A stretch of DNA of 64,000 bases from Proteiniphilum acetatigenes DSM 18083 (GTDB lineage: Bacteria; Bacteroidota; Bacteroidia; Bacteroidales; Dysgonomonadaceae): NCBI RefSeq assembly GCF_000380985.1, contig NZ_KB905695.1:372001-436000 (forward strand), read 5' to 3'. Below are positions 19,734 to 50,836 of this stretch, one piece after another. The translations under genes and the position numbers were made by a program. The notes under the pieces are model-generated. The model was not told where the DNA came from and did not search any database. It saw only the letters and a program-made list of their open reading frames with translations. Position 1 is the stretch's first letter. Each line of letters starts with the position of its first letter.

Positions 19734-20858
19734 TTAACTTAAATGATATCCCTGACTGCGCAGTTCCGATGCACGGAAGAGGTTATAGGTCTCCTTATCT
19801 AAGGGATAATCCCAGCAGCCGAGACTATGGTATATTTCACCTCCGAATCCCGATTTGAATTTGTATAAGCCGTAGAGCGGATGTTCGGGATCGGGTGAAG
19901 GGGAAATGCCGAACATGTCATACTGGGTGCAACCCGCCTGTTGTGATCTCATGATCGCTTCCCATTGCAATGCGTAGGTTGCCATAAGGTTACGGTGTGA
20001 CGATGAGGATGCACCGTAAAGATAAGATCCTCTGTTACCTGTAATGACCAGGAACATAGCCGCTAACGGTTTTTCGTCGTATTCCGCTATAAGAAGGCTT
20101 ACATCGGCCGGAGAACTGGTATTGTCTGCACGGGCGTCAAGCACTGCCCGAAAATACTTGATATCGTTCAGGAGAAGGTGATTCCTGGTCGCTGTCTCTT
20201 TATAGAGTTCATACCAGATATCCATTCCTTCCATGCCCATCGATCTTACCGTCACCCCTTTGCGTTGTGCTAATTTGATGTTGTAACGTGTTTTCGGTTT
20301 CATCCTTTGGAGAAGGGTTTCTTTATCCTGTGTCAGATCGAGATAGATGGTATTAGCCGGTAAAATATTGGAGTGGGCTTTCTTGAAATTCCAGTTATGC
20401 GTACTGAAATTGAACCGTAGTTCCTGTGAGAGACTTTCCGGTTCGCCTTTCCATATCCCGTTCTCGTCGAAATGATCTTTCTCCCTGGCCCAGTACGATT
20501 CCCAGCAAAGGTCATAACGGATATGGATGCAATCGGGAGGCAGAACTGAGCGGAGAGATTCGGAGAGTTCTTCTAAAAATATACCCTGGAATTCGTCGGC
20601 CGGTTCAATTTCCGGGCCGTAAGGCACATAAGCTACAGAATGATTCCGGTTGATCTGCTGCAAAATAACCAGCAGATCCGATTTAATGTATGACTGATCG
20701 CCTGATTTCGGAAAGAGATCAGGCCTTTGGGATGTAAAATTGACGGCAAGGGTGTTAGCTCCCAGGGATGTTTTCACCTCCGACCAGAAAGCCGTTTGCT
20801 GTAAAATAGGTGTAGCATACAACTCTTCGGTCTCCTTGAGGCAGACGTTTGTTAGCAT
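19734..20858 (-). CDS. FemAB-family aminoacyltransferase
   Basis: GNAT-fold peptidyltransferase of the FemABX/lipid II bridge group, 374 residues. The first domain (PYGPEIEPADEFQGIFLEEL) is followed by a second (NTIYLDLTQDKETLLQRMKP, KTRYNIKLAQRKGV, then LAAMFLVITGNRGSYLYGAS and LYKFKSGFGGEIYHSLGCWD), the standard double acyltransferase layout. Enzymes of this group add amino acids to peptidoglycan precursors from aminoacyl-tRNA, which fits the murein theme of the genes upstream. The substrate is not deducible. Confidence 0.88.
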   Translation of the reverse strand: MLTNVCLKETEELYATPILQQTAFWSEVKTSLGANTLAVNFTSQRPDLFPKSGDQSYIKSDLLVILQQINRNHSVAYVPYGPEIEPADEFQGIFLEELSESLRSVLPPDCIHIRYDLCWESYWAREKDHFDENGIWKGEPESLSQELRFNFSTHNWNFKKAHSNILPANTIYLDLTQDKETLLQRMKPKTRYNIKLAQRKGVTVRSMGMEGMDIWYELYKETATRNHLLLNDIKYFRAVLDARADNTSSPADVSLLIAEYDEKPLAAMFLVITGNRGSYLYGASSSSHRNLMATYALQWEAIMRSQQAGCTQYDMFGISPSPDPEHPLYGLYKFKSGFGGEIYHSLGCWDYPLDKETYNLFRASELRSQGYHLS

Positions 20859-20879
20859 ATCTTCTTTATTTTAGACCTG

Positions 20880-20887
20880 CAAAGGTA
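20880..20887 (-). promoter_or_regulatory. -7 box for the FemAB gene
   Basis: TACCTTTG on the minus strand, 21 bp before the start. Confidence 0.5.
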
Positions 20888-20916
20888 GGCAAAATAAACC
20901 TGTTTCTCCAGGGAAA

Positions 20917-21738
20917 TTATTTTTTCTCTCTGTTTAAGCGTGTTATCTCATTTAACATCAAAGGAAATGCGGGATATGCCATGTCATGTCCATAACCTTG
21001 CAGTTCGAGTAAACGGGTATCCTGATGTCCTGCTACTTTCATCATGCGGGCGAGATAGGCGTTCTCTTCATAGCGGCCTAACATTTCCAGTTCGCGGTCT
21101 CCCGTGATAAGCAGCATAGGGGGTGCGTCGGAGCGGACATGGAACAGCGGGGCATATTTATCTATAACCGGTTGTTTGTCGTCGATATCGTTCTCCTTTC
21201 GTATAGTAAAGTGGGTGATAGCCTGCCCGCTGAAAGGGATCAGACCGGCAATACTGTCGGCATCGATACCGTGAACTGCAAGATATTGTTTATCCAGTCC
21301 AATCATCATGGACAGATATCCTCCGGCAGAATGCCCCGATACAAATATTCGCGAACTGTCGCCTCCATATCTTCCGATATTCTTAAAGACCCATGCCACC
21401 GCTGCTGCCGCATCTTCAATATAAGCGGGTGCTTTTACCCCCGGGGCAAGCCTATAGTTGACGCCGACAATGCACAGACCTTTATTTTTCAGTGCTTCGG
21501 GAAGTTCTTTATTGCCTCCTGTCAGGCCGCCACCGTGAAACCAGACGACTGTAGTGAAATCTTTTTTATTTACCGGATAGTAAATATCGAGCAGGCACCG
21601 CTCTCCAATATAGCTGTCTTGCCGGCGCACTTCTTCCGCATAATAGGGAATGTCGGAAATGGTTTCGTATCCTATCTCCTGTGCTACCAAAGATGTGGAT
21701 AATGCAATGAAGAGGAAGAGTGTTATATTTCTGATCAT
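20917..21738 (-). CDS. Secreted alpha/beta-hydrolase esterase
   Basis: 273 residues with a cleavable signal peptide (ITLFLFIALSTSLVAQ). The hormone-sensitive-lipase pattern is complete: oxyanion HGGG (68-71), nucleophile Ser137 in GHSAGG, Asp in ITGDRELEM and His in GYGHD near the C-terminus. It likely acts on small acyl esters in the periplasm. Its place at the end of the peptidoglycan locus would suit removal of O-acetyl groups from murein sugars, but that is inference. Confidence 0.85.
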   Translation of the reverse strand: MIRNITLFLFIALSTSLVAQEIGYETISDIPYYAEEVRRQDSYIGERCLLDIYYPVNKKDFTTVVWFHGGGLTGGNKELPEALKNKGLCIVGVNYRLAPGVKAPAYIEDAAAAVAWVFKNIGRYGGDSSRIFVSGHSAGGYLSMMIGLDKQYLAVHGIDADSIAGLIPFSGQAITHFTIRKENDIDDKQPVIDKYAPLFHVRSDAPPMLLITGDRELEMLGRYEENAYLARMMKVAGHQDTRLLELQGYGHDMAYPAFPLMLNEITRLNREKK

Positions 21739-21797
21739 AATTATTAAATTAAAAATTAAAAGTGAAAAATTAAAAATGAAAATAGGGAATATAATAT

Positions 21798-22139
21798 TCA
21801 GAACCGGTCTGGTTCTGTGCGTGCGGCTGTCACCGTTACATTCCGGAAATCCCGGTCGAAACGGGCCAGTAGCAACTCAACCAGTTTCGCATGAAAAGCT
21901 GTATAGAGTTTTGTCGAGATATGTTTTCTGTCCTTTCGCTTTATCAATCCGAAACGGAGTTGTTTGTCATCTACCCAGATCTCAGGCTTAAAAAAAGCTT
22001 CATTTTTCCATAGAAGTGATCCGTAGGTAAGATAACCGTCTGCAGTCGCTACCCATTTATCCGCTTTTTTATTTTCTATTGCCTCATAGATCTTGTCCAG
22101 TAAAAGATCGGGATGATCGGTATAAATGATGATTGCCAT
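21798..22139 (-). CDS. Small conserved hypothetical protein
   Basis: 113 residues, no signal peptide. The sequence (IIIYTDHPDLLLDKIYEAIE, VATADGYLTYGSLLWKNEAF) suggests a compact alpha/beta protein that I cannot assign. It follows murQ by 11 bp, so it is probably co-transcribed with it. Confidence 0.75.
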   Translation of the reverse strand: MAIIIYTDHPDLLLDKIYEAIENKKADKWVATADGYLTYGSLLWKNEAFFKPEIWVDDKQLRFGLIKRKDRKHISTKLYTAFHAKLVELLLARFDRDFRNVTVTAARTEPDRF

Positions 22140-22150
22140 ATTGTACAGTT

Positions 22151-22972
22151 CTATTCCTTCTTAGAGTGATAACTATTGATGGCATTTTTGACTGACCCAT
22201 GGAGTAATAACAGGTTTTTAGCTTGTTCGTATGACAGCCCCAGTTCATCGACGATCATACGTGTGCCTCTGTCCACCAGTTTTTGATTGGTGAGTTGCAT
22301 ATTTACCATACGGTTGCCTTTTACCCTACCAAGCTTGATCATGGTGCTTGTCGTGATCATATTGAGTACCATCTTCTGAGCTGTTCCCGCCTTCATACGG
22401 GTACTGCCGGTCACATATTCCGGCCCGACAATGGGCTCTATCTTAATCTCCGCTTCAGCTGCTACGGGAGAATCGGGATTACAGCAGATGGCTGCCGTAA
22501 GGATACCCTTTTCACGTGCGCGGCGTAATGCCCCTATCACATAAGGAGTGGTGCCCGAAGCTGCAATACCAACCAACACATCGTTTTGATCGATCTTATG
22601 TGCTATAAGTTCTTCCCACGCTTTCTCAAGGTTGTCTTCGGCTGCTTCCACCGGATTACGTAACGCGACGTCTCCTCCGGCAATCAACCCGATCACATAA
22701 GTGTCAGGCATGCCGAAGGTAGGTGGAATCTCAGAGGCGTCGAGCACTCCAAGCCTGCCGCTTGTACCTGCACCGATATAGAAAAGACGCCCGCCTCGCT
22801 GCATTCTTGCCACGATGCCGGTCACCAGTTTCTCTATTTCGGGAATGGTTTTCTGTACGGCAAGCGCTACTTTCTGATCTTCTTGATTGATCTCTGTAAG
22901 AATTTCGAGAACAGATTTTTGTTCTAAGTTGTCATAGAGCGATGATTGCTCTGTTATTTTAGTAAAAGACAT
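22151..22972 (-). CDS. murQ: N-acetylmuramic acid 6-phosphate etherase
   Basis: Removes the lactyl ether from MurNAc-6-P to give GlcNAc-6-P, the key cytoplasmic step of MurNAc salvage. The 273-residue protein has the SIS fold with FYIGAGTSGRLGVLDASEIP and the two acidic catalytic positions Glu81 (SEIPPTF) and Glu112 (VEAAEDN). PEYVTGSTRMKAGTAQKMVL and the C-terminal UBA-like end follow. The etherase acts after a kinase, and a BadF-type sugar kinase gene lies just upstream, as in the Tannerella murTKQ set. Confidence 0.97.
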   Translation of the reverse strand: MSFTKITEQSSLYDNLEQKSVLEILTEINQEDQKVALAVQKTIPEIEKLVTGIVARMQRGGRLFYIGAGTSGRLGVLDASEIPPTFGMPDTYVIGLIAGGDVALRNPVEAAEDNLEKAWEELIAHKIDQNDVLVGIAASGTTPYVIGALRRAREKGILTAAICCNPDSPVAAEAEIKIEPIVGPEYVTGSTRMKAGTAQKMVLNMITTSTMIKLGRVKGNRMVNMQLTNQKLVDRGTRMIVDELGLSYEQAKNLLLLHGSVKNAINSYHSKKE

Positions 22973-23060
22973 GACTGTTGATGTGATGATTTGCTAATGT
23001 GATGATTTGATGATTAATTTAATGTGACAAACAACGTTCAACGGAGCGAAACGTAGTTAA

Positions 23061-23108
23061 ATGTACCAATCCCGATGAGTCGGGACGGGTAGTGCTAATG
23101 TGGCTAAT
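23061..23108. repeat. REP-like hairpin element, copy 1
   Basis: TCCCGA-TGAG-TCGGGA hairpin (23070-23085) flanked by CTAATGTG words. A related arrangement, with two hairpins, lies at 30919-30996. Confidence 0.55.
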
Positions 23109-23140
23109 TGATTGGTATACTTAAATTAGTAATTAGTAAT

Positions 23141-23980
23141 TTACAATTTGTGATACTCAATCAGTCCGGGCATAGGTGATTGGGATATTGTTCCGATCTC
23201 AATTCCTTTCTCTGCCGCAACTTCCTTCAACGGTTCGGAAAAATACCATGCGATAGAGCCCACAAAATTAACTTTATTTTTTTGATAATCGTATTGCATC
23301 ACGTTCCTTTCAAAAAAAGCAGAAAGACTGCGGGTAACGATTCTCCGGATAGTCGGGTCTTCGATATGTTTGAGTAGAAACGGGCAGAGGCTTGCCAGAA
23401 AACGGTTAGGGAAAGGTTGACGGTATACTTTGTCAATAATTAGTGCAGGTGTAAGATCATACTCGTCGAGTAATGTTTCTTTCAGCCCTTCAGTAAGTTG
23501 ATTTTTCAAAGCATCTCCTATCAGATTTTTTCCCAATACAGCACCACTTCCTTCGTCACCCAAAATAAAACCGAGCGGAGATATCTGGTTCACGATACTT
23601 GTACCATCCCATTCACAGGAATTACTTCCGGTTCCCAGGATACAGGCAATTCCGGATCTGCGTCCACAAAGGCTGTGAGTCGCTGCTATCAGATCGCTGT
23701 AGACTTGAACAGTCTCAACGGGAAATGATTGACGAATGGCATCGCGTACCAAGTCCGTTTTCTCAGGGATACACCCTGCTCCATAGAAATAAATCGCTTC
23801 TATATTGGCCTCTTTTAAGAGAGGATATACATGTAACCTTATCTCTTCAGCGATCTCTTCTTGTGTCTGATATACAGGACTAATACCTTTCCCGGAAAAA
23901 CGGTGTATTATCTCTCCGTTTCTTGTAAGACACCAGTCTGATTTTGTAGCGCCGCTATCGGCTATTAATATTTCTTGCAT
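23141..23980 (-). CDS. murK: BadF/BcrAD-family sugar kinase, probable MurNAc/GlcNAc kinase
   Basis: ASKHA-fold ATPase of 279 residues. Phosphate loop 1 (IADSGATKSDW, residues 6-16), the second phosphate loop GTGSNS and GFILGDEGSGAVLG are those of the BadF group of GlcNAc kinases. In Tannerella a kinase of this group (MurK) phosphorylates MurNAc to MurNAc-6-P for MurQ. The position directly upstream of murQ supports that role; plain GlcNAc kinase activity is the alternative and may coexist. Confidence 0.85.
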   Translation of the reverse strand: MQEILIADSGATKSDWCLTRNGEIIHRFSGKGISPVYQTQEEIAEEIRLHVYPLLKEANIEAIYFYGAGCIPEKTDLVRDAIRQSFPVETVQVYSDLIAATHSLCGRRSGIACILGTGSNSCEWDGTSIVNQISPLGFILGDEGSGAVLGKNLIGDALKNQLTEGLKETLLDEYDLTPALIIDKVYRQPFPNRFLASLCPFLLKHIEDPTIRRIVTRSLSAFFERNVMQYDYQKNKVNFVGSIAWYFSEPLKEVAAEKGIEIGTISQSPMPGLIEYHKL

Positions 23981-24043
23981 ATGGCAAAATCCATGGATAA
24001 TTTGTAAATTCCCAAATCTTCTATTTGTATAATTATTTTCCTT

Positions 24044-24084
24044 TATCGCACGTAGCGCATTATTGCCGAAGGCATTATTGTGCG
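24044..24084 (+). repeat. 41-bp direct repeat, copy 1
   Basis: Matches 25378-25418 at 36 of 41 positions by eye, with potential to fold (CGCAC..GTGCG ends). The two copies bracket the NagX-like gene. A partial third copy lies around 24103-24126. Confidence 0.65.
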
Positions 24085-24139
24085 CAACATCTATCTTTTA
24101 ATTATTGCCCGTAGCACATTATTACAATGAAATTGGCTA

Positions 24140-25312
24140 TCATAATTTGATGTAAATATTCCGTTTGTAGAGGATATATCCGAATAGCCAACAAGCAGTG
24201 ACGAATAAGAGGGCGTAAAGCAGCGATCCGAAATAATCACCTGCCCAGGGACGCAGTAACATTTCATAGACAAACCCTTTGATGGAAATAACTTCCCCCT
24301 GTACTGTAAAACTGATGTTGGAAAGTAGGGTAGCGAATACTCCTGCAAAAACATACACGATAAGCGGATTTACACCGAATGCATGGAAAAACCGGCTCCA
24401 TCGCTCTTTTTTATTGATATCGATGATCCAGATCAGCAATCCCAACAATTGGGCTGCAAAACCTGTAGTAGCAAGGACGAAAGTAGGACTCCATATTTTC
24501 TTGTTGATAGGACAGCCATATTGTAGCAGTAATCCGGCAAATGCAAGTACGGTCCCCCAGATCAGCAGTTTTTCTACGCGGGTATGATTCTCCTTGTTAT
24601 CAACGATAAGCTTACCGAAGAGGAAGCCGATCAGTACATGGGCAATGGAAGGAAGTGTGCTGAGCAGACCTTCCGGATCGAATGCAATCCGTTCTCCTGA
24701 CGGTGCGGTATCTTTGTACATATGATCAGTACCCCATAACTCGCGGTCGACTACGGCAATGATATTCTGTTCCGACATCTCAAAGCCTTTTCCAAATTGT
24801 AGTATAAGAAAGTATCCCAATAACAGCAAGGCAATCACCCAGGGCAGATACTTACTTTTTACAAATATAGCGATCAGTGCTGCAAAGCCATAAGCCAGCC
24901 CCAATCGTTGCAGTACGCCTAATATGCGGAGGGTATCGAAATGTGTGGCAGCTTGTGTGAAGGATTCTCCTGAAGCCAGTCCCCTGCACAGTTGTCCGAA
25001 CCAGCCCAACGCCAATCCGATCACGAAAATAAGGATGGTGCGCCGTACAATTTTCCAGATAGCTGCTTTAGACGGTTCGAAGCGGAATTTTCTCAATGAC
25101 ATGAAGGTGGATACGCCCATGATAAACATAAAGAACGGAAATACCAGGTCGGTGGGGGTGAGCCCATGCCAATGTGCATGGCCGAGAGGAGTATAGACAT
25201 AACTCCATGAACCGGGATTGTTGACCATAATCATACCGGCGATGGTGATTCCACGAAGAATATCGAGCGAGAGTAACCGGCCGCTTTGCTGAGGTGTAGT
25301 TATTGTATTCAT
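24140..25312 (-). CDS. NagX-like membrane acyltransferase (COG4299/DUF5009)
   Basis: Polytopic protein of 390 residues with about ten hydrophobic helices. The N-terminal LSLDILRGITIAGMIMVNNP, then WHGLTPTDLVFPFFMFIMG are hallmarks of the heparan-alpha-glucosaminide N-acetyltransferase/NagX family. Members are found with amino-sugar catabolic genes and are proposed to acetylate or move glucosamine-type sugars across the membrane. Lying between a NamZ enzyme and the sugar kinase, it fits processing of murein amino sugars. The exact reaction is unknown. Confidence 0.88.
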   Translation of the reverse strand: MNTITTPQQSGRLLSLDILRGITIAGMIMVNNPGSWSYVYTPLGHAHWHGLTPTDLVFPFFMFIMGVSTFMSLRKFRFEPSKAAIWKIVRRTILIFVIGLALGWFGQLCRGLASGESFTQAATHFDTLRILGVLQRLGLAYGFAALIAIFVKSKYLPWVIALLLLGYFLILQFGKGFEMSEQNIIAVVDRELWGTDHMYKDTAPSGERIAFDPEGLLSTLPSIAHVLIGFLFGKLIVDNKENHTRVEKLLIWGTVLAFAGLLLQYGCPINKKIWSPTFVLATTGFAAQLLGLLIWIIDINKKERWSRFFHAFGVNPLIVYVFAGVFATLLSNISFTVQGEVISIKGFVYEMLLRPWAGDYFGSLLYALLFVTACWLFGYILYKRNIYIKL

Positions 25313-25377
25313 ATATTATTTTCAAATTCAAAATTCAAGATTCCAAATTTAAGATTCAAAATCCATTATCTTTTATC

Positions 25378-25418: not shown

Positions 25419-25425
25419 AGGTACA

Positions 25426-26661
25426 TTATCTGTAAAGATAATACTTCTTCGACAATTTCCTGAATGCTTCTTCATCTTTTGTCCAGTAGGATTGAATATC
25501 GGCGAAATGGTGGTTTTTGGAAAATTCCAGTCGGATAAAATCACTGCCGCTCACTTTGTCGAACATGTCGAACCTGTTTTCGGGAGCATGATCAAATACC
25601 TTTTTGTCGGGGTAAAGTTGTGCGGCGACCTCCATTATATGGAACTGGATATCCGACAGGCGTGCTTTCCGAAAATCAGTCAGATATATCTGTACTCCCT
25701 GAAAGTTACTTCCTTGCCCAACCGAATAGTAGGGCTTCAGGTGGATAGGACGGAACGTTACTCCCGGCAGTCGCTTGGCATTCAATACCCCGGCAAACTC
25801 TTCGGCATTGATCCATTCGGCTGCGAACATCTCAAAGGGAAGCGTATAACCCACGCCGATAGACATATACCCCAATTCTCCCAGGATCCCCGAAACAGGA
25901 TAAAAATAGGCTGAATGGGCGAACGGTATATGAGGTGAGGTGGGAATCCAGGGTAACCCTGTGTCTTCGAAATTCATTTTCCGACGCCATTTTTTCATTT
26001 TTACCACCGTCAGTTTACAAGGTTGAGGAATCATCTTTTCTCCGATGATCATTTCCGCCAATTCTCCGCAGGTAAGGCCGTAGACATAAGGGATCCGCAG
26101 TTGGCTTACAAAAGAGAAGAAACCTTCTTCCACCAGGTTCCCTTCCACTTTCAGGCCGCCTAACGGGTTTGGGCGATCGAGTACCACAAATTCGATATTG
26201 TTTTCTGCGGCGGCCTGCATAGCCAGATACATGGTAGATATATAGGTATAAGACCGGCATCCTATATCCTGGATATCATACACAAGTACATCCACGCCCT
26301 CCAGCATTTCTTTGGTGGGTTTTCGGGTAGCTCCGTAGAGGGAATGGACAGGTACTCCGGTATTGGGATCAGTGAATGATTCTATTTTATCGCCGGCATG
26401 CACATCACCGCGTACGCCATGTTCCGGGCCATAGAGTGCTACCAGTTGCACATTGGGTGCTTCATACAGGATATCGATGGTCGATTTCAGGTTGTTATCG
26501 ACTCCCGTCGGATTAGTGATCAGTCCCACACGTTTCCCATGCAATATTTTAAAGTTGGCTTCTTTCAGTACTTCGATCCCGGTCTTCACGTTTATTTTCT
26601 GGGCGGAAGAGGAGAAGGAAATGAGTAAACCACATACAATAAATACCAAGAATTTATTCAT
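25426..26661 (-). CDS. namZ: NamZ-type exo-beta-N-acetylmuramidase (DUF1343), copy 1
   Basis: 411 residues with a signal peptide (MNKFLVFIVCGLLISFSSSA). The DUF1343 core is complete: GKRVGLITNPTGVD, the conserved LYGPEHGVRGD (Glu80), VYDIQDIGCRSYTY and VLDRPNPLGG. Characterised members (B. subtilis YbbC/NamZ and Tannerella NamZ1/2) release MurNAc from the non-reducing end of murein glycans. It sits 53 bp after the MFS carrier, upstream of the NagX, kinase and etherase genes. A second, diverged DUF1343 gene lies at 35235-36401. Confidence 0.92.
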   Translation of the reverse strand: MNKFLVFIVCGLLISFSSSAQKINVKTGIEVLKEANFKILHGKRVGLITNPTGVDNNLKSTIDILYEAPNVQLVALYGPEHGVRGDVHAGDKIESFTDPNTGVPVHSLYGATRKPTKEMLEGVDVLVYDIQDIGCRSYTYISTMYLAMQAAAENNIEFVVLDRPNPLGGLKVEGNLVEEGFFSFVSQLRIPYVYGLTCGELAEMIIGEKMIPQPCKLTVVKMKKWRRKMNFEDTGLPWIPTSPHIPFAHSAYFYPVSGILGELGYMSIGVGYTLPFEMFAAEWINAEEFAGVLNAKRLPGVTFRPIHLKPYYSVGQGSNFQGVQIYLTDFRKARLSDIQFHIMEVAAQLYPDKKVFDHAPENRFDMFDKVSGSDFIRLEFSKNHHFADIQSYWTKDEEAFRKLSKKYYLYR

Positions 26662-26714
26662 ATAATCAGTAAATTAATAAATCATCAAATTAACCTTTTT
26701 ACCATTCCTCTTTT

Positions 26715-27995
26715 TCACTTTCTCACTTTTTTAGCTTTCCCAAAATCCTTATCTACTTTCATAAAGGGAATCAACAGGAGGGTAGGAATAGTAGCTATCA
26801 GGATAAAGATAAAGAAATTCACATATCCCAGTTGTTCCTGAATCCAGCCGGCCGCCATACCCGGGAGCATCATTCCCAGTGCCATGAATCCCGTGCAGAT
26901 GGAGTAGTGTGCAGTCTTATGTTCGCCCTGAGAGAAATAGATCAGGTAGAGCATATAGGCGGTAAAACCAAACCCGTAACCAAGTTGTTCGATAGCCACT
27001 GCCACATTTACCCAAATAAAACTTTCGGGTTGGTATATCGCCAGTAGAAGATAAGCGGCATTGGGAAGTGTAATAGCCAGTGCCATAGGCCAAAGCCAGT
27101 ATTTTAATCCTTTACGCGACGCAACGATACCGCCTATGATACCGCCAAGAGTCAGGGCTATCACGCCGACCGTACCGTAGGCGAGACCTACCTCCTGAGT
27201 ATTTAACCCCACTCCGCCCACTTCGCGGGCATCGAGCAGGAAAGGTGATGCCAGCTTCACCAACATGGCTTCAGCCAGTCGGTATAAAAGCATAAAGGTG
27301 ATAGCCAGTCCGATTCCTTTCTTCGTGAAAAATGATTTGAATGTGTTCCCGAACTCTGTCATTACCTCCTTTGGGGTGTGTGCAGCTTTTCCTGTATCGC
27401 TTGCAGGGTAGGGCAGCATAAAGCGGTGCCAGGCAAAGAAAGCGATAAACAGACCTGCCAGAATGAAAAAGGTAATGCTCCAGGCGTATGGGATATTACC
27501 GGTACTTTTCTCGAGGAATCCGGCCAGGATCACCAGCAATCCCTGTCCCGCAATGGAGGCCAGGCGGTAGAAAGTGCTACGGATACCGACAAAAAATGAT
27601 TGTTGTGAGTCGTCCAACGCAAGCATATAAAAACCGTCGGCAGCGATATCGTGTGTGGCGGAACTGAAGGCCATCAGCCAGAAGAATGCAAGTGATGCCT
27701 GCAGGTAGAATGGGGTGGGTAGGGTAAAGGCAATACCCGCGAATCCGGCGCCGATCAGCAACTGCATGGATACGATCCACCACCGTTTGGTTTTCAGGAT
27801 ATCCACGAAAGGGCTCCAGAAGGGTTTGATGACCCATGGAAGATAGAGCCAGCTGGTGTACAGGGCTATTTCGGTATTGGATAATCCGAAGCGTTTGTAC
27901 ATAACTACGGAAACGACCATTACCGCTACGTAGGGTAAACCTTCGGCAAAATACAAAGTAGGGATCCATGCCCAGGGGTTGCGTGTTGTTTTCAT
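26715..27995 (-). CDS. AmpG/MurT-like MFS transporter
   Basis: Twelve-helix major-facilitator carrier of 426 residues, started at MKTTRNPWAWIPTLYFAEGLPY. That opening and SSATHDIAADGFYMLAL are characteristic of the AmpG group, which imports murein-derived GlcNAc-anhydroMurNAc peptides. In Tannerella an AmpG-like carrier (MurT) brings MurNAc across the inner membrane and is linked to MurK and MurQ. The same gene company here suggests a MurNAc or muropeptide importer. Specificity cannot be read from sequence. Confidence 0.9.
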   Translation of the reverse strand: MKTTRNPWAWIPTLYFAEGLPYVAVMVVSVVMYKRFGLSNTEIALYTSWLYLPWVIKPFWSPFVDILKTKRWWIVSMQLLIGAGFAGIAFTLPTPFYLQASLAFFWLMAFSSATHDIAADGFYMLALDDSQQSFFVGIRSTFYRLASIAGQGLLVILAGFLEKSTGNIPYAWSITFFILAGLFIAFFAWHRFMLPYPASDTGKAAHTPKEVMTEFGNTFKSFFTKKGIGLAITFMLLYRLAEAMLVKLASPFLLDAREVGGVGLNTQEVGLAYGTVGVIALTLGGIIGGIVASRKGLKYWLWPMALAITLPNAAYLLLAIYQPESFIWVNVAVAIEQLGYGFGFTAYMLYLIYFSQGEHKTAHYSICTGFMALGMMLPGMAAGWIQEQLGYVNFFIFILIATIPTLLLIPFMKVDKDFGKAKKVRK

Positions 27996-28044
27996 TTTTT
28001 CAATATAACCTATAATTAGTAATTGGTAATTTATCAATTAGTAA

Positions 28045-36401: not shown

Positions 36402-36480
36402 AGGTTTGTTTTTCTTTTCTATCGGCAATAGAGAGACTCATTTTATAATAAATGCGCCTCTCTATTTTTGATCAGGTCTA

Positions 36481-38358: not shown

Positions 38359-38429
38359 ATTATTAAAAATATTCTTGTGTGCCAATAATTTATATGCTCG
38401 TTTCATAATCTCAGTTTTTTAACAATCAA

Positions 38430-42059: not shown

Positions 42060-42106
42060 ATCTTTATTTTGAATTTTAATTTGTTTCCAATAAATTATGA
42101 TTCACT
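41848..42106 (+). repeat. 259-bp direct repeat at the susC1 5' end
   Basis: Covers about the first 70 codons of susC1 and 47 bp upstream of it. It aligns without gaps to 47299-47557 with about six mismatches by eye, while the sequence immediately beyond falls off to ordinary paralogue similarity. Confidence 0.85.
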
Positions 42107-42113
42107 TAATCTA

Positions 42114-43841: not shown

Positions 43842-43871
43842 ATTACTTTCTTTTTTCAATAATAAAACAAT

Positions 43872-46800
43872 TTAGAATGTAAGCTGAACTCCAAATGATA
43901 CTGTCCTGTACATCGGGTCTATACGTCCCCATGTGGCGTTACCCAGGCTCGCACCTTCTTCTTTATCATTTACTTCGGGATCGACAGGAGCATTGCTTTT
44001 GTTGATCAGCTCCATCAGGTTATTCCCGCTAAAGTAGATCCTGGCTCTTTGCATGTAGATCTTCGATGCAATCTCTGATGGCAAAGTATATCCGACCGTT
44101 AAATTCTTTAACCGCAAATAGGCCATATTGACAAGATATTTGGATTGGGGATAGAAATTATGATTCCCTAACTCTAACACTGAGATAGTTCCTCTTCCGG
44201 CATTACCGGGAAATAAACGCGGGAAATCAGCATTGGGATCGGGATTTTCTTCTGTCCAATAGCTTGTCTGGTTTGCATAAATAGCATCGGCACCACGCAT
44301 CATCGGCATAACAAAAGCACTTTGGGTCCAAACTGCCCGTTTCCCCACGCCCTGGAAAAACATATCAATGTCAAAACCTTTCCATTCTGCACCTAATCTG
44401 AAACTATATTGATAACGAGGGGTCGTATTACCTATCACTTTCAGGTCGCCATGATCATCGGCAGTACCTTTACCACCATCAATCACGCCATCTCCGTTTA
44501 GATCCTTGAACTTGACATCACCGGGACCAAATGCGAAACTTCCCTGTTCTAGCCCCTCTTGAGAAGCAACTCCAGTCTTATAAGTTCCATCGGCATTAAA
44601 ATCATCTTGTGTGAAATAGCGTTCAGTCTCAAATCCCCAGATATCACCATATCTTTTTCCGGAGTAATTTTGATTCAGTAATTTCGCTTCATTTTCCCAT
44701 TTGGTAATATCGGTAACGAAATCTCCTATATTTGCATTAGCATATACAAGCACTTGATTGAAACGGTGACGCCAGTCAACTGTCAGTTCCCAACCACGTG
44801 TGCGGAGTGTGCCGGCATTCACATATGGAGCATCGGCACCTAATACCTGAGGCATGGTCTGACCAGGAGCCAACATATCTTTTGTGGTACGTTGGTACCA
44901 GTCGAACGTGAAGTTCAGTTCATTGTGCAGCAACCCTAAATCCAATCCCACGTCAAGCGTTTGAATCCGTTCCCACATCAATGTGGACGAAACCAACTTG
45001 GGTAAATCATATGCCACTACTTTGGTACCATCATCGGCCAGCCAATAGGTATCGGTATCGGAGCGCTTTGCCAGCGTAGACAGGAACATGTTGTCCCCTA
45101 CTGCCTGATTACCAATTTCACCATAAGATGCTCTAAATTTCAGGTTACTAATGGATTCTCTCAGAGGGACAAAGAATGATTCTTCACTGATCCTGTAACC
45201 TGCCGAAGCGGAAGGGAAGAACGCCCATCTATCGGATGCAGGAAAACGTGATGAACCGTCGTAACGACCGTTCATCTCCAGTAACCAGATACCCTTATAA
45301 TCGTAATTAATACGGCCGAAATAACCTGCTGTCGCCCAATGGTTATGCTGTCCGGTCACGTACTGAGAGCCGGTTGCAAGATTGAACTCCGGAAGGTTGT
45401 AATCCAAAAGGTTATCTCTTCTTGAAGAATGTCTGAAATGGGTGCCGCTCTCAGCATTGGCTCCTAACATAAAATTAAAATTATGTTGATTGGCAAGCGA
45501 GAATTCATAATTGGCAAAAATATTAAAGGCGAATGACTTGTCCTTTCGTGATTCCTGGATCAGGTATGAGGTAGTTTCAAAAGTTCCAATATTATCAATG
45601 GCTCCACCCCAGGAGTTCCAAACCTGTACGGGAATATAGGCACCCTTGTAAGTATAGTTATTTACATCGTAGGTGTAATCGGTATTTAACGTCAACCCTT
45701 TTGCGAGGGTAGCTTTTGCAAACGTACCCATACGGATAAAACCATTATTGTCGGTCCAATCTCCTGCCTGCTTCCGGTATGCTATATCATTCCTGAAATC
45801 AGTACCTTGATATGTTCCGTAAGGACCGAAGAAACTTCCCCATCGCCACATATACTGATAAGTCGTTCTACGCGTGGCAGGCCCGATGAAGTCTTTATTG
45901 CTGTAATTGAATCGTGCTCCCACCTGCAACCAGTCCTTTACATCGGTGGTTACATTCATCATGGCAGTCCATTTATCCAGTTTTTCGGGGAAGAAGGTCA
46001 TGATACCTTCATCATGGTTGTATCCTACCGACATGTAGTAAGATGTTTTTCCACTTGTTCCCTGTACGGACAGGTTATGGCTTTGCGACGGTTTCCAGTT
46101 CCTGAACATGATATCTACGACATCCCAATCGGCAAAATACATACCCACTCCGTTGTTGTCGAGAATGAAATCTCCAAGCGGCTTGGAACTATCCGTAAGG
46201 GCATCTCTGTGACCCGGAATCATTTCCCTATAACCTGATTTTTTACCGTTATGCTCATCTCTCCATCTTTCGGCATATGGAAGCATTTGATCCAAATACA
46301 TGCCGAACAACTCATTTGCCGCACCGCTCCGACCGTTTGCTGCGATTAACGCTCTCAACTGACTGGGCACGTCGGGATAGTCGGGTAGTATAGTAGGTGT
46401 ATCCCATGCAACATTTCCATTATAGTTCACTGATACCCGGTCGACCTGCCGGGCTGATTTGGTGGTGATGAGTATTACCCCAAAAGCAGCTCTGGTACCG
46501 TAAATAGAAGTTGAGGCTGCATCTTTTAACACTGAAACACTTTGAATATCCTGTGTATTCAATAAGGAAAGGTCGTCCATCGGTACCCCATCCACAACTA
46601 TCAGGGGATTACTTTTCGCATCATTACTCAATGTCCCCAACCCCCTGATCGTAACTGTGGGCTGTGCTCCCAACCTGCCGCTGCTGCTTATAACGGATAG
46701 CCCGGGAACCGCTCCTTGTAAAGCTTTGGAAATATCCGAATAGGGGCGCGCCTCCAGTGTCTTGCTTACATCCACGGTAGATACAGCTCCTGTTAAATTA

Positions 46801-47510
46801 GCTTTTTTCTGTATACCGTATCCCACGACCACCACCTCTTCCAATGCCTGAGAGTCTTCTATTAGTGTGATGTTGAAATTTGTGTTTCCTGCTGTATTGA
46901 TTGTCTGGTTCAAATATCCGATATAGGTGATCTGTATTGTTGCATCGTTTGCCACTTGCAACGTGAAATTTCCGTTTACATCGGTAATGGTACCGTTGGA
47001 GGTGCCCACTTCAATAATATTGGCACCGATAATTGATTCTCCGCTAACATCATTTACAGTTCCGGTAATTGTCTTACGGGTTTGCTGCACTTCCCCGGTA
47101 TTGATTTTGTTTTCAGCCTCTTTCTTATTTTCAACACTTCCCGGTTTCCTTGAAATGGTGATCTGCCTGTTGACGATAGAGTAGGCCATATCTGTATTCC
47201 TCAGCAACAAATCCAGTATTTCGTCCATAGATTTGTTGTTAAAGGAAACATTTACAATCTTTGATAAACCGCTTTCGGTATCATCCATAAAGAGAAACAG
47301 ATAGTCGCTGTTTTTCTCTAATTCACGAAATGCTTCTTTCAACGTTACATTTTCCAATTCGGCGCTGATTGCTTTTGATTGAGAATAAATATTTTCTGCC
47401 GTCACAGAAAAAATGCAAAGGAAAGTGATAAAAAAATAGATTTTCATAATCTTTAAAAACTTATCATTCTTTTTCGTGACAAAAAGCTTACTTGTGTACT
47501 TTTCTTGCAT
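43872..47510 (-). CDS. SusC/RagA TonB-dependent transporter with STN domain, pair 2
   Basis: 1212-residue outer-membrane importer, the first PUL gene downstream of fecR. Domains run as in SusC1: signal region, STN (about 50-124), CarboxypepD_reg-like (about 147-228), plug (VVVGYGIQKKANLTGAVSTV) and barrel ending YRTVSFGVQLTF. The STN domain again predicts signalling to FecR. The barrel is clearly different from that of SusC1, so the two pairs probably take different fragments. Confidence 0.95.
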   Translation of the reverse strand: MQEKYTSKLFVTKKNDKFLKIMKIYFFITFLCIFSVTAENIYSQSKAISAELENVTLKEAFRELEKNSDYLFLFMDDTESGLSKIVNVSFNNKSMDEILDLLLRNTDMAYSIVNRQITISRKPGSVENKKEAENKINTGEVQQTRKTITGTVNDVSGESIIGANIIEVGTSNGTITDVNGNFTLQVANDATIQITYIGYLNQTINTAGNTNFNITLIEDSQALEEVVVVGYGIQKKANLTGAVSTVDVSKTLEARPYSDISKALQGAVPGLSVISSSGRLGAQPTVTIRGLGTLSNDAKSNPLIVVDGVPMDDLSLLNTQDIQSVSVLKDAASTSIYGTRAAFGVILITTKSARQVDRVSVNYNGNVAWDTPTILPDYPDVPSQLRALIAANGRSGAANELFGMYLDQMLPYAERWRDEHNGKKSGYREMIPGHRDALTDSSKPLGDFILDNNGVGMYFADWDVVDIMFRNWKPSQSHNLSVQGTSGKTSYYMSVGYNHDEGIMTFFPEKLDKWTAMMNVTTDVKDWLQVGARFNYSNKDFIGPATRRTTYQYMWRWGSFFGPYGTYQGTDFRNDIAYRKQAGDWTDNNGFIRMGTFAKATLAKGLTLNTDYTYDVNNYTYKGAYIPVQVWNSWGGAIDNIGTFETTSYLIQESRKDKSFAFNIFANYEFSLANQHNFNFMLGANAESGTHFRHSSRRDNLLDYNLPEFNLATGSQYVTGQHNHWATAGYFGRINYDYKGIWLLEMNGRYDGSSRFPASDRWAFFPSASAGYRISEESFFVPLRESISNLKFRASYGEIGNQAVGDNMFLSTLAKRSDTDTYWLADDGTKVVAYDLPKLVSSTLMWERIQTLDVGLDLGLLHNELNFTFDWYQRTTKDMLAPGQTMPQVLGADAPYVNAGTLRTRGWELTVDWRHRFNQVLVYANANIGDFVTDITKWENEAKLLNQNYSGKRYGDIWGFETERYFTQDDFNADGTYKTGVASQEGLEQGSFAFGPGDVKFKDLNGDGVIDGGKGTADDHGDLKVIGNTTPRYQYSFRLGAEWKGFDIDMFFQGVGKRAVWTQSAFVMPMMRGADAIYANQTSYWTEENPDPNADFPRLFPGNAGRGTISVLELGNHNFYPQSKYLVNMAYLRLKNLTVGYTLPSEIASKIYMQRARIYFSGNNLMELINKSNAPVDPEVNDKEEGASLGNATWGRIDPMYRTVSFGVQLTF

Positions 47511-47557
47511 ATCTTTGTTTTGAATTTTAATTTGTTACCAATAAATTACGATTCACT
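47299..47557 (+). repeat. 259-bp direct repeat at the susC2 5' end
   Basis: Second copy of 41848-42106, 5451 bp away in the same orientation. It includes the start region and the upstream leader. Recombination between copies would delete one SusC-SusD pair and leave a hybrid susC. Confidence 0.85.
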
Positions 47558-47672
47558 CCGTAGATTTTGCTAATCGCTCGGCATAGTCCAAACTTCCTTG
47601 GCCTCTGTTCTTGCCTAACTGCAAAATTCACACTCTGGTCGAATAATGTTGCCGCATTATTCGACTTTTTTT
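47524..47672 (+). ncRNA. Candidate antisense small RNA between fecR and susC2
   Basis: Inferred. A plus-strand TATCTTTG box lies at 47510-47517 and a strong plus-strand terminator at 47638-47672, giving a possible RNA of about 150 nt. It would run opposite to the minus-strand operon in the fecR-susC gap and pair with the susC2 leader. Cis-encoded antisense sRNAs at this spot (DonS type) are known in Bacteroides PULs. The -33 element is weak, so the 5' end is uncertain. Confidence 0.45.
47638..47672 (+). terminator. Intrinsic terminator on the strand opposite to the operon
   Basis: Perfect 11-bp stem GTCGAATAATG / CATTATTCGAC, 6-nt loop TTGCCG, followed by seven T on the plus strand. On the minus strand there is no T-run after the stem, so it does not serve fecR. 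Confidence 0.8.
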
Positions 47673-47727
47673 GATTTTTCTTTTTCCATAGGCATACATA
47701 GTTTTTAAATTAATAATATCGATTTAG

Positions 47728-48888
47728 TTATCGGTGGATGAATATTGTCTCATCACTCTGTTTATCAAATTGTAAATAAGTCATTTTAGAAAAAACTTCG
47801 AGCACATCATTCAAGTTATCCGAAAGGAATAGTTTACCTGAACAGGTCTGGTCATGCATATTCATATTCGGATTGTATCGGAATTCTACGTTATAGTATC
47901 TTCCTACTTTCTTCAATACCTCGCTCAAAGGGGTTTTATTTAATTGCATATAACCGTTTGTCCAACTGATATAATCCGAAACATCTACTTGCTTGCGAAG
48001 GATCATGCCGTTTTCGATCTCAGCCATTTCATTGGGTTGTAATAATACGGCGCTGTTTTCGCTCATCACTTCCACTGAACCGTTTACCAAAACAACCGAC
48101 TCTCTTGTATCTTCAGAATAGGAAGAGACATTGAAGGATGTTCCATATACGGTGATTTGAGAATGAGGGGTATGGATCACAAAAGGGACATCGGTTTGTT
48201 TCGTAACCTCAATGAAGATTTCTCCTTCCACACTGATCTCCCTCTTTTTTCCGGAAAATGTGCCGGGAAATTCCATTTTGGTACCGGAATTCAGGTGTAC
48301 TTTCGATCCGTCTGCCAATATAAGGGTCGACCTTTTTCCATAAGGCACGATAAGTTTGTTTGTCTGGTTATTATTCAAATCGATTTCTTTCTGTGTAAGT
48401 GGATTCTGGATCACTGCACTGTGTTTCTTTTCGGAAAGATCCAAGGTGGAATTATTATCGATTTCCAATACGTTATTACCGGTAAAAAGTTGTATATTGT
48501 TATTGTTCATTACTTCCCCGATGGAAGACATTCCAGGCTCCCTGTTTTCAGACTTCTCGTGCAGAATGAAGAGTGTGGATATTAACGCAAACAATAATAC
48601 GGCGGCGGCAGATGAAGCATATATTTTATGCCATTTTTTTCTTCTCTGTTTTTCAATTTTTTCATTTAGTTTTTGCAGGCCTGAAGTTTTGCTGTTCTGA
48701 AGTGTACCTTTTCTATTCCGTATTGTTTCAAGTGCTTCAATAGCTTTATTGAACGGTTCCTGAAGCTCTGCATTTTCCCGAATAAAATTTTCCCAGAAAG
48801 CATCCAGTTCTTTTGTGGGGCGGATTCTCCAGTACACAAAAAGTTCGTCGCTCAAAAAATCTTTATAATCCATAACAGGCTCTATCAT
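47728..48888 (-). CDS. FecR-type anti-sigma factor
   Basis: Inner-membrane regulator of 386 residues. A cytoplasmic helical part (1-85) is followed by one membrane helix (about 89-110, IYASSAAAVLLFALISTLFI), the periplasmic FecR domain (VPYGKRSTLILADGSKVHLN, FSGKKREISVEGEIFIEVTK, about 180-275) and a C-terminal STN-contacting domain (LNKTPLSEVLKKVGRYYNVE). It should hold the ECF sigma factor until an STN-SusC signals ligand. The start may be MDYKDFL, five codons later. Confidence 0.93.
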   Translation of the reverse strand: MIEPVMDYKDFLSDELFVYWRIRPTKELDAFWENFIRENAELQEPFNKAIEALETIRNRKGTLQNSKTSGLQKLNEKIEKQRRKKWHKIYASSAAAVLLFALISTLFILHEKSENREPGMSSIGEVMNNNNIQLFTGNNVLEIDNNSTLDLSEKKHSAVIQNPLTQKEIDLNNNQTNKLIVPYGKRSTLILADGSKVHLNSGTKMEFPGTFSGKKREISVEGEIFIEVTKQTDVPFVIHTPHSQITVYGTSFNVSSYSEDTRESVVLVNGSVEVMSENSAVLLQPNEMAEIENGMILRKQVDVSDYISWTNGYMQLNKTPLSEVLKKVGRYYNVEFRYNPNMNMHDQTCSGKLFLSDNLNDVLEVFSKMTYLQFDKQSDETIFIHR

Positions 48889-48957
48889 TAGTTATATAAT
48901 AAAGACTGAGCGAAGGGGAAAAGGAGGACAATATTAATAAATATTAACCAAATATAG

Positions 48958-49527
48958 TTAAAGGAATGCCAGAAGAAAAGTAAGGAAAGGATTTTTTAGT
49001 TGCTGGTTTTCTCTCATTTTTTGTAGTGCCCTGTATGTCGATTTTTTTACGGCTTCAGGGTTCATATCCAACAAGGCTGCTATCTCATTGAAAGATAGAT
49101 TGAGTTGATAATGGTAATAAATTATTTTCCTCTGTTTCGGTGGTAAAACTCTTAGTGATCGTTTAATTTCATCTTTCCACTGCAATTCTGTTTCTTTCTC
49201 AATAATCCTTTCAACTACACTGTTTTCACTCTCCAGTATGATATCATTATAATTTATATAGTTAATTTGGGTTTCCACATTATGGATATCAAATAATCTG
49301 TTTTTCATGCAGTGAAGCAGGTAAAACTCAATATTTCTGATATGGGTCAACTGCTTCCGGGATATATATATTTTATAAAAAACATCCTGAATGGCATCTT
49401 TACATACCTCCTCATCGAAGCCTATTTTCAGACCGTATGCAAAAAGTTCTTTGAAATAAAAGCGATAAAGTTCTGAAAAAGCGTCTTCGTTACCTTGTAA
49501 GAATTTTTGCCAGCTGTCCGCACCCAT
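48958..49527 (-). CDS. ECF sigma factor of the Bacteroidetes FecI/PUL type
   Basis: 189 residues. Region 2 (FSELYRFYFKELFAYGLKIG, ICKDAIQDVFYKIYISR-like) and region 4 (LRVLPPKQRKIIYYHYQLNL, SFNEIAALLDMNPEAVKKST) are both present. It precedes fecR by 69 bp and should direct transcription of the SusC/D genes. Unusually, its ATG lies two bases after the folA stop codon, so it may be made at a basal level from the thyA-folA transcript. Confidence 0.93.
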   Translation of the reverse strand: MGADSWQKFLQGNEDAFSELYRFYFKELFAYGLKIGFDEEVCKDAIQDVFYKIYISRKQLTHIRNIEFYLLHCMKNRLFDIHNVETQINYINYNDIILESENSVVERIIEKETELQWKDEIKRSLRVLPPKQRKIIYYHYQLNLSFNEIAALLDMNPEAVKKSTYRALQKMRENQQLKNPFLTFLLAFL

Positions 49528-49529
49528 TT

Positions 49530-50045
49530 TTACTGTTTCCTTTTTATATAGGTCAGAAACGAATAATTATACTTATGCTTTTCGTCTGTTTTATATTTTT
49601 CGGTGTGAATTAATTCCCATTCATCCGGGTCGATTTCCGGAAAAAAGGTGTCGGCATCGTCGAACGTATGATGGATACGGGTAAGATAAAGTTTATCGGC
49701 CAGATGTAATGATGAACGGTAAAGTTCTCCTCCGCCGATAATAAAAACCGTATCTTCATTTTTGCAATAGGCCAGCGCTTCATCCACAGAGCGTACCACA
49801 ATACAGCCAGGGTAATTCTCCGCCTTATCGGAGGTGATCACTATATTAGTGCGGTTGGGAAGTGCACCTTTGGGTAACGATTCATAGGTCTTTCTTCCCA
49901 TGATGATACTGTGTCCGGTGGTAAGTTCCTTAAAATGTTTCAGGTCGGCAGGAAGATAGCAAAGCAGTCCGCCATTACGCCCGATACCGTTTTGTTCATC
50001 GAGTGCGACGATAATAGCAATATGTGGTTTATTGTGGTTCATCAT
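49530..50045 (-). CDS. folA: Dihydrofolate reductase
   Basis: Reduces dihydrofolate produced by thymidylate synthase. 171 residues with the NADPH/folate-binding signatures [40 protein letters not shown] and [14 protein letters not shown]. The start overlaps the thyA stop (ATGA-type coupling). The [17 protein letters not shown] and FLTYIKRK ends are typical of the chromosomal enzyme. Confidence 0.97.
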
Positions 50046-50836
50046 ATACTGACAGTGCCTTTAATGTGTGGGTGTGGATCGTAATCTACCAGTTCGAAAT
50101 CTTCGAATCGGAAACTGAAAATATCCTTGACATCAGGGTTGATCTTCATATTTGGTAATGGTCGCGGTTCACGCGACAGTTGAAGATTCACCTGCTCAAG
50201 GTGGTTCAGATAGATATGGGCATCCCCAAAAGTGTGGATGAAATCTCCTTCCTGTAATCCGGTAACCTGCGCCATCATTTTCAGCAGTAGCGCATAGGAA
50301 GCTATATTGAAAGGCACTCCCAGAAAGATATCAGCACTGCGTTGATAGAGTTGCAGGCTCAGTTTGCCATCGGCTACATAGAACTGGAAAAAGGCGTGGC
50401 AGGGTGGGAGGTTCATATTGGGAATATCGGCCACGTTCCACGAACTGACGATGATACGGCGCGAATCGGGATTGTTCTTAATGGTGTTGACTACCTGCGA
50501 TATCTGATCGATATGTCCGCTATTATAATCGGGCCATGAACGCCATTGGTATCCGTAGATATGCCCCAGGTCGCCATTTTCATCTGCCCATTCGTTCCAG
50601 ATGCGTACACCGTTTTCATTCAGATATTTCACATTGGTATCCCCGTTCAGGAACCAGAGTAGTTCGTGAATGATCGATTTCAGATGCAGTTTTTTTGTGG
50701 TGAGTACCGGAAATCCGTCGCTCATCCTATATCGACTCTGGTGCCCGAAGATACTGATGGTACCGGTTCCTGTACGGTCTTCTTTTTTGGCACCTTCGTC
50801 GAGTACCCGCTGCAATAGATCAAGATATTGTTTCAT
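50042..50836 (-). CDS. thyA: Thymidylate synthase
   Basis: Methylates dUMP to dTMP with methylene-tetrahydrofolate. It is exactly 264 residues, as in E. coli, with the catalytic Cys146 in [18 protein letters not shown] and the [20 protein letters not shown] and HIYLNHLEQ segments. First gene of the thyA-folA-sigma-fecR run; a good promoter lies 140 bp upstream. Confidence 0.98.

Follow-up and report, generated by a model that had tools for sequence, protein, structure and literature searches.

A putative polysaccharide utilization-type locus for murein glycans built around the MurNAc-salvage operon of Bacteroidales

Results

The locus and its salvage core

The stretch analyzed here, referred to as the window, comprises 64,000 nucleotides of Proteiniphilum acetatigenes DSM 18083 (positions 372001-436000 of contig C4, NZ_KB905695.1, in the 4.78-Mb genome G000). 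It contains a run of 21 open reading frames (ORFs) that extends from thyA to a FemAB gene, lies on the minus strand throughout, as a preliminary description of the sequence had stated, and has intergenic gaps of -4 to 217 bp (Table 1). In the order of transcription the run encodes ThyA, FolA, an extracytoplasmic function (ECF) sigma factor, FecR, SusC1, SusD1, SusC2, SusD2, NamZ1, a CE4 deacetylase, a golvesin/fn3 protein, a GT2 glycosyltransferase, a SpoIID/LytB protein, AmpG, NamZ2, a NagX-like protein, MurK, MurQ, a 113-residue protein of unknown function, an esterase and FemAB, as judged from Pfam and NCBIfam profiles and matches to solved structures. The Pfam and NCBIfam matches bore out the two NamZ proteins, the SpoIID protein, the two SusC/SusD pairs with STN domains, FecR and the ECF sigma factor of the preliminary description, which had passed over the GT2 gene, the CE4 gene (an eroded GH9-CE4 gene), the 113-residue protein and the esterase. 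The features of a polysaccharide utilization locus (PUL) that are present include adjacent susC/susD pairs, a linked sensor-regulator system (ECF, FecR, STN) and linked enzymes (two NamZ, CE4, SpoIID and a weak amidase), which would act on one glycan. With moderate confidence we propose, from sequence comparison, that the region is probably a PUL-type locus directed at murein glycans that has been joined to the operon known in Bacteroidales for salvage of N-acetylmuramic acid (MurNAc). This PUL reading is supported as a matter of architecture and evolution: of the full PUL-type murein locus claimed previously, the joining of the salvage path to SusCD and ECF/FecR-STN, shared by relatives, held up, and we infer murein as the ligand and inducer of SusCD.

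The window's inner pathway belongs to a type already known, its core having been published as the operon of Tannerella forsythia. There, the genes Tanf_08345-08385 are described in the order xanthan lyase, gtf, gtf, lytB, ampG, ybbC, murT, murK and murQ, as a single transcript by reverse transcription PCR and as activated by GppX (passages in PMC5388701, PMC7670621). T. forsythia genome G429 encodes a MurK with 100% identity to the solved T. forsythia protein (275 residues), and its cluster is collinear with the nine-gene operon position by position, the second gtf ORF being recognized by position and the MurK ORF coming from a separate search instead of the ORF list. The Tannerella path of NamZ, MurT, MurK and MurQ invoked previously corresponds to this operon (PMC5388701), and the window holds the golvesin/amidase gene ('xanthan lyase'), gtf, SpoIID/LytB, AmpG, YbbC/NamZ, the MurT slot, MurK and MurQ in identical order. 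Unlike the T. forsythia operon, the window has one gtf instead of two, an extra NamZ1, and same-strand SusCD pairs with ECF/FecR upstream; the published operon is under GppX control.

The assignments of MurQ and of a MurK-like kinase were confirmed, the former by TIGR00274 above its cut-off and the latter by its best solved-structure matches, which are MurNAc kinases and their homologues; Pfam gives the kinase a sub-threshold BcrAD_BadFG match alone. The window MurK is nearer to the MurK entries 8ow9 and 8oqw than to the K1058 entries 8oqk and 8ow7, these entries being assigned by inference from the S-P-L/I69 versus R-A/T69 residues (PMC10465942) and from the 100% match lying beside NamZ and MurQ. 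It retains S-P-L (QISPLGF), the catalytic Asp (YSDL), G67, I69, N119 and D141, and departs at N32, F34, F35, T94 and M96, which are S, V, Y, S and L, respectively; T94, a Ser in the window protein, is reported to be important in MurNAc recognition (PMC10465942). A second MurK-MurQ pair lies elsewhere in the genome (L124:9608-11512), with E-S-L replacing S-P-L in the kinase, whose substrate may differ. NamZ1 shares 84% and 79% identity with two Dysgonomonas records. A third NamZ gene (L122:14271-15437) is 75% identical to NamZ1; no salvage gene was matched in its 20-kb stretch, and a SusC of a different kind is located 4.6 kb from it.

The SusC/SusD receptor clade

In a tree of 71 SusC proteins, from which the near or exact copies L038 and L040 were excluded, SusC1 and SusC2 of the window fell into one clade of 38 rows with a support of 100 in the quick Shimodaira-Hasegawa-like approximate likelihood ratio test, run without bootstrap. 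When "near" was fixed as at most 10 kb from a salvage gene, this clade took in 34 of the 47 near-salvage rows, none of the 15 own-genome background rows (the best-scoring other G000 SusCs with an ORF of at least 880 residues, two rows being one gene) and 4 of the 9 others. Within it, SusC1 clusters with proteins of two genus genomes and of Tannerella sp. (L044), and SusC2 with those of Massilibacteroides (L024/L025) and Bacteroides (L047). The position of SusCD genes beside the salvage core was rejected as evidence by itself, since the genome holds many SusC genes (211 SusC-matching stretches, 134 first-look candidates, about one per 36 kb).

The linkage was assessed with a SusD profile built from 16 rows and applied to 393 Bacteroidales genomes, the three best first-look candidates being scored per genome, so that more may exist. 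A cut at a gap in scores between 435 and 366 bits left 24 matches above, the clade SusDs, and 31 next-ranked matches below (E<=1e-90). A murK gene (E<=1e-80) lies within 30 kb on the same contig for 12 of the 24 clade SusDs, two of which are the window's own, versus 1 of the 31 next-ranked (Fisher p 6e-5, uncorrected for kinship). At the same threshold, murK occurs in 14 of the 18 further genomes that have a clade SusD versus 21 of the 374 that have none, likewise uncorrected for kinship and with both searches assumed to cover the same 393 genomes. A murK, NamZ1, GHL10 or GH9-CE4 gene is near 17 of the 22 clade SusDs that could be judged, two contigs being too short; stretch lengths vary, and the next-ranked SusDs were not judged at that width. 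Query genes other than Sus (NamZ, GHL10, GH9-CE4, the golvesin protein, MurK and others) lie within 1.5 kb in 5 of 19 clade loci versus 0 of 11 next-ranked loci. Among 59 NamZ1 loci, a SusD gene stands immediately before NamZ1 in 8, which represent more than one family. Single-sequence searches of 344 genomes at E<=1e-100 gave three close matches to SusD2 and four matches to SusD1 outside G000.

A shared STN head and probable exchange of receptor bodies

SusC1 and SusC2 are 88% identical over their first 125 residues and 42% identical in their bodies (from residue 231), and the corresponding values for the pair in G010, a genus relative, are 99% and 39%. The domain that follows, residues 146-230, is likewise 86% identical between SusC1 and SusC2, so that the shared tract extends past the STN domain. 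Twelve SusCs of the genus comprise three body types (37-45% identity between types). Among them, STN identity tracks the species, with identity of the golvesin protein as the measure (Mantel r 0.72, 0 of 5000 permutations), and neither body identity (r -0.15) nor the relation of STN to body (r -0.06) shows such a trend; when each genome was represented by a single SusC, the correlation between STN and species was 0.62-0.64, a value reached in 1-8 of 2000 permutations. The window STN query found no match in the proteins with orthologous bodies from Massilibacteroides, Tannerella sp. and Bacteroides. In addition, a 27-bp leader core, with as many as 3 mismatches allowed, occurs at only two sites in the 4.78-Mb genome, one ahead of SusC1 and the other ahead of SusC2; its palindrome folds weakly, and does so in only some of the species. 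These observations suggest that recombination or gene conversion may preserve the resident STN domain and leader as one receptor body gives way to another, and since leader and STN tract are shared locally, different bodies would each be kept under one local ECF/FecR pair.

In line with this view, ECF and FecR are present in all 8 genus loci with an STN-bearing SusC and a judged context, and neither is whole in the 4 loci without SusCD (Fisher p 0.002 for the 12 clear cases, 0.007 with G031 counted, uncorrected for kinship). The arrangement resembles FecA/FecR/FecI-type control and the ECF/anti-sigma control of Bacteroides PULs in combining an STN-bearing TonB-dependent receptor, FecR and an ECF sigma factor in one locus. 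Unlike in these systems, the two receptors of the window share one regulator pair, their STN domains being alike and their bodies different. A literature search on recombination among STN, SusC and anti-sigma factors turned up, at the level of titles and opening lines of abstracts, only work on SusCD import.

A gap of 2 bp separates folA from the start of the ECF sigma gene, and the regulators and thyA-folA may have a common transcript. A hairpin at 47637-47666 was dropped as a terminator of thyA-folA-ECF-FecR, since its T-run sits on the opposite strand. Across nine genus sequences, four of its pairs changed on both sides, as high a count being reached in 3 of 500 shuffles, and the pair types did not exceed those in shuffles. 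A conserved TAnnTTTG occurs at 47510-47517 (within 47510-47680, plus strand), and no -33 TTTG was seen with it. Together, hairpin and TAnnTTTG may mark a DonS-like antisense RNA, about 150 nt long, that would cover the SusC1 leader. A scan of Rfam at gathering cut-offs gave no match, and Bacteroides-type promoters (TTTG-N17-23-TAnnTTTG) numbered 3 in the window versus 2.22 expected, none of them immediately upstream of the locus.

Conservation in the genus and in other Bacteroidales

Fourteen of 36 same-genus genomes, picked for longer contigs, were compared. GT2, NagX and MurK were found in all 14, SpoIID, AmpG and MurQ in 13 each, the golvesin protein in 12 and NamZ2 in 12 (one partial); NamZ1 was found in none of the 14 stretches examined. 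In 8 of the 14, the interval between folA and the core holds ECF, FecR and SusCD together; the G010 stretch is truncated by the contig end ahead of its two SusCD pairs. The salvage core does not always come with SusCD. In several genus relatives SusCD is followed by DUF4623 and GHL10 genes (lipoproteins as judged by eye), and in some also by GH9-CE4; SusCD with DUF4623 and GHL10, in either order, recurs in G095, G316, G344 and G061.

The gene-order search in other Bacteroidales suggested previously did locate SusCD beside the core or NamZ1 elsewhere, although SusCD is absent from 4 of the 14 genus genomes. The design closest to the window was found in G316, a member of another family, where two SusCD pairs in the same order, with SusDs among the 24 clade matches, NamZ1 and the whole core lie on one strand; the G316 stretch gave no ECF/FecR match. 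Bacteroides ihuae (G201) likewise has SusC-SusD-NamZ1-golvesin/amidase-GT2-SpoIID-AmpG-NamZ2-NagX-MurK-MurQ on one strand. In contrast to the window, a second MurK-type kinase precedes SusC there in place of ECF/FecR, the SusC has no match to the window STN, and about 1 kb extra lies between GT2 and SpoIID, where other relatives hold a further ORF.

The protein in the MurT slot

The protein encoded at 24140-25312 occupies the slot of the published MurNAc transporter, and the NagX-like acyltransferase family named for it previously proved appropriate: it matches human HGSNAT (E 2.7e-26) and the NCBIfam NagX equivalog NF046061 (132 bits), from which it is distant, given the curated cut-off of 480. 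Its residues N31, H45 and D55 align to N286, H297 and D307 of HGSNAT, described as catalytic (PMC11199644), and this N-H-D pattern was present in 28 of 28 homologues scanned. The gene labeled an AmpG/MurT-like carrier (26715-28037), on the other hand, belongs to the AmpG family and is not MurT. In the window as in T. forsythia G429, NamZ and MurK flank a NagX-like protein. The G429 protein, 56% identical to that of the window, matches DUF5009, NagX and, slightly below the cut-off, HGSNAT_cat, and is by its position MurT, an identification that rests on gene order. NagX is not universal in such loci; L027 and G061, for example, showed none between NamZ2 and MurK.

In the passages available, MurT is called a member of the sodium symporter superfamily and of the major facilitator superfamily (PMC5790795) and of a novel family (PMC7670621), and no DUF5009 protein is said to have a confirmed function (PMC12423673). 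A sodium symporter (PMC5790795) was rejected as MurT, as symporter-like genes (by eye) occur near NamZ1 in G169 and G095 and none between NamZ2 and MurK, where Tanf_08375 lies. We tentatively raise the possibility, which we hold to be doubtful, that MurT is an HGSNAT/NagX member and wholly or partly a transmembrane N-acetyltransferase that would re-acetylate de-N-acetylated murein sugars with cytosolic acetyl-CoA, within a locus whose murein-specific receptor bodies swap onto one fixed STN/FecR/ECF head. HGSNAT is reported not to carry its substrate across the membrane (PMC11199644), and published E. coli uptake data for MurT argue for some transport role.

Golvesin, SpoIID and CE4 proteins

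The gene at 31038-34106, previously termed an amidase, matches Golvesin_C and fn3 in Pfam, and its Amidase_3 similarity is weak, at 15.6 bits versus a cut-off of 27 (19.3 bits with the golvesin insert removed). Among 19 homologues, 18 nevertheless showed similarity to Amidase_3 at E<=1, the lowest value being 8.7e-5 and that of the window protein 0.017. H163, E186, H498 and E581 are invariant across the 19 and, by the motifs of amidases, are candidates for the zinc ligands and the catalytic Glu. The AlphaFold model has a mean predicted local distance difference test score of 57.7, with values below 50 over residues 122-216, 388-486, 491-522 and 554-601, and a profile of the 19 homologues, searched against solved structures, gave no match to an amidase at E<=1. 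The SpoIID protein has no recognizable signal peptide on a simple hydrophobicity scale, and this would-be lytic transglycosylase is therefore predicted to be cytosolic; 32 of 34 homologues lack a hydrophobic N-terminal stretch, and the other two and the window's own only touch the threshold. The CE4 gene aligns blockwise to an 832-residue GH9-CE4 protein of a relative, with the GH9 part absent in frame and 223 of 238 residues identical in the CE4 part. Intact GH9-CE4 copies are present in relatives, and a plain deacetylase was dropped in favor of the in-frame-eroded rest of a GH9-CE4 gene.

Table 1. Features of the thyA-FemAB run, listed in the order of transcription.
Feature	Position	Strand	Basis and remarks
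thyA	50042..50836	-	Pfam PF00303; housekeeping; upstream neighbor in relatives too
folA (dihydrofolate reductase)	49530..50045	-	Pfam PF00186; housekeeping, upstream neighbor
ECF sigma factor	48958..49527	-	Pfam; TIGR02937 above cut-off
FecR anti-sigma regulator	47728..48888	-	Pfam FecR, FecR_C
Terminator-like hairpin with T-run, antisense to operon	47637..47666	+	Pairs covary, 9 genus sequences
Conserved 27-bp leader of SusC1	47522..47548	-	Genome search
SusC1 with STN domain	43872..47510	-	Pfam STN, Plug, barrel; TIGR04056; tree
SusD1 lipoprotein	42114..43859	-	Pfam; lipobox
Second leader copy, before SusC2	42071..42097	-	1 mismatch
SusC2 with STN domain	38430..42059	-	Pfam; tree; nearest tree row Massilibacteroides (67%)
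SusD2	36481..38406	-	Pfam; lipoprotein as judged by eye
NamZ1, exo-beta-N-acetylmuramidase family	35235..36428	-	Pfam PF07075/PF20732; PDB 4jja; hydrophobic N-terminus
CE4 deacetylase, remnant of GH9-CE4 gene	34244..35194	-	Pfam; alignment to relative's full-length protein
Golvesin/fn3 protein, predicted N-acetylmuramoyl-L-alanine amidase with golvesin insert	31038..34106	-	Golvesin_C; weak Amidase_3; T. forsythia 'xanthan lyase' position
GT2 glycosyltransferase	29444..30904	-	Pfam; without hydrophobic N-terminus
SpoIID/LytB-domain protein, predicted cytosolic	28045..29367	-	TIGR02669 above cut-off; N-termini scan
AmpG muropeptide permease family	26715..28037	-	TIGR00901 E 8e-53, 179.6 bits; cut-off 350 not reached
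NamZ2	25426..26661	-	Pfam
NagX/HGSNAT-family protein, published MurT slot	24140..25312	-	NagX and human HGSNAT matches; N31, H45, D55
MurK MurNAc kinase	23141..23980	-	Solved-structure matches; S-P-L lactyl pocket
MurQ MurNAc-6P etherase	22151..22972	-	TIGR00274 328.8 bits vs cut-off 302; PDB
113-aa protein, function unknown	21798..22139	-	Present in most genus stretches
Alpha/beta-hydrolase esterase	20917..21738	-	Pfam; hydrophobic N-terminus
FemAB-family protein	19734..20858	-	Pfam

Discussion

If the locus works as a PUL-type system for murein glycans, soluble extracellular murein fragments would be bound by SusD1 and SusD2 and imported by SusC1 and SusC2. Following the FecA/FecR signaling paradigm, the loaded SusC might then act through its STN domain on FecR and free the ECF sigma factor for the expression of SusCD and probably of the genes behind it, a chain whose architecture is present in the window. 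In the periplasm, the predicted amidase would remove peptides and NamZ1 and NamZ2 would release MurNAc from the denuded glycan, in keeping with their families, and the CE4 protein may, as a family member, deacetylate. AmpG would move muropeptides inward, and the membrane protein in the MurT slot would either carry MurNAc or re-acetylate de-N-acetylated sugars across the membrane. As homology to the characterized Tannerella enzymes suggests, MurK would phosphorylate MurNAc and MurQ would convert the product to N-acetylglucosamine (GlcNAc)-6-phosphate and D-lactate. The occurrence of clade SusCDs beside GHL10 genes in some relatives was counted in favor of murein glycans, GHL10 being the family of E. 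coli DigH. DigH is described as specifically hydrolyzing denuded murein glycans (PMC12288456). The locus would serve feeding on murein sugar: MurA, the only one of MurA and MurB sought, scored above its cut-off in the window's genome, whereas T. forsythia is described as lacking MurA and MurB (PMC7670621), and the presence of MurA points to nutrition and not to a remedy for auxotrophy.

Several observations weigh against this interpretation. Of the 47 SusCs counted as near a salvage gene (at most 10 kb), 13 lie outside the clade, including L076 at only 118 bp from NamZ1 and seven rows of Bacteroides, Prevotella and Dysgonomonas by MurK or NamZ genes, and since the loci of the tree were gathered via NamZ1 and MurK, nearness is partly ascertained. 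Five of the 22 judged clade SusDs (G108, G260, G341, G349, G426) have none of the murein genes sought nearby. The directly preceding SusD is confined to the 8 of 59 NamZ1 loci mentioned, and any SusC to 21, though 13 of the 59 hold at most 5 kb upstream (46 hold more). In T. forsythia G429, the SusC beside K1058 has no more than a distant resemblance (34% over 308 residues). Within the genus, ECF, FecR and SusCD were all lost in 4 of 14 genomes (G005, G017, G022 and G023, with a 40-residue ECF match in G017) and the inner pathway was kept, and in G031 SusCD lacks a whole STN and ECF/FecR were not detected. Some clade loci contain GH9-CE4, GH42 or, by eye, GH20-like genes, which would fit chitin-like glycans too. 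In the window itself, a simple lipobox pattern and inspection by eye revealed no surface lipoprotein hydrolase or binding protein beyond the SusDs, and the gaps of 113-168 bp that precede NagX, MurK and MurQ make separate transcripts possible.

One rival explanation is self-recycling, in which the periplasmic amidase, NamZ and AmpG would turn over the murein of the cell itself and SusCD would do no more than recapture lost fragments. The golvesin protein, CE4, NamZ1 and NamZ2 carry signals but no lipobox (simple pattern, by eye) and would accordingly be periplasmic, the inner pathway survives where SusCD was lost, and the T. forsythia operon is described together with recycling genes (PMC5388701). 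However, the clade SusCDs of some relatives accompany GHL10 and DUF4623 proteins, mostly lipoproteins by eye, that would act outside, and the receptor bodies change fast, as foreign ligands would predict; we regard self-recycling as rather improbable. Alternatively, the SusCD pairs might import another GlcNAc-type glycan, chitin- or chitosan-like or from a host, and merely adjoin the salvage operon. The glycoside hydrolase genes just mentioned, the 13 SusCs of other kinds near salvage genes and three clade pairs that stand, by eye, amid housekeeping-looking genes would agree with this, and the density of SusC candidates makes such a neighborhood cheap. Yet the linkage of clade SusDs to murK and their co-occurrence with it far exceed those of the next-ranked SusDs, and the loci with SusD immediately before NamZ1 extend over more than one family; this explanation also appears unlikely to us.

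What is new in the window, under the reading as a murein-glycan PUL, is the joining of the salvage core to a receptor clade with a fixed signaling head. A literature search for peptidoglycan PULs yielded, in titles, opening lines of abstracts and selected passages, no account of outer-membrane import of murein fragments in Bacteroidales. The locus names SusC1D1, SusC2D2 and their clade as candidate murein receptors, and the combination of a kept STN head with exchanged bodies would offer a simple route by which new receptors enter existing control. Moreover, if the MurT slot indeed holds a member of the HGSNAT family, the published transporter and the experimentally uncharacterized DUF5009 family (PMC12423673) would merge into one question.

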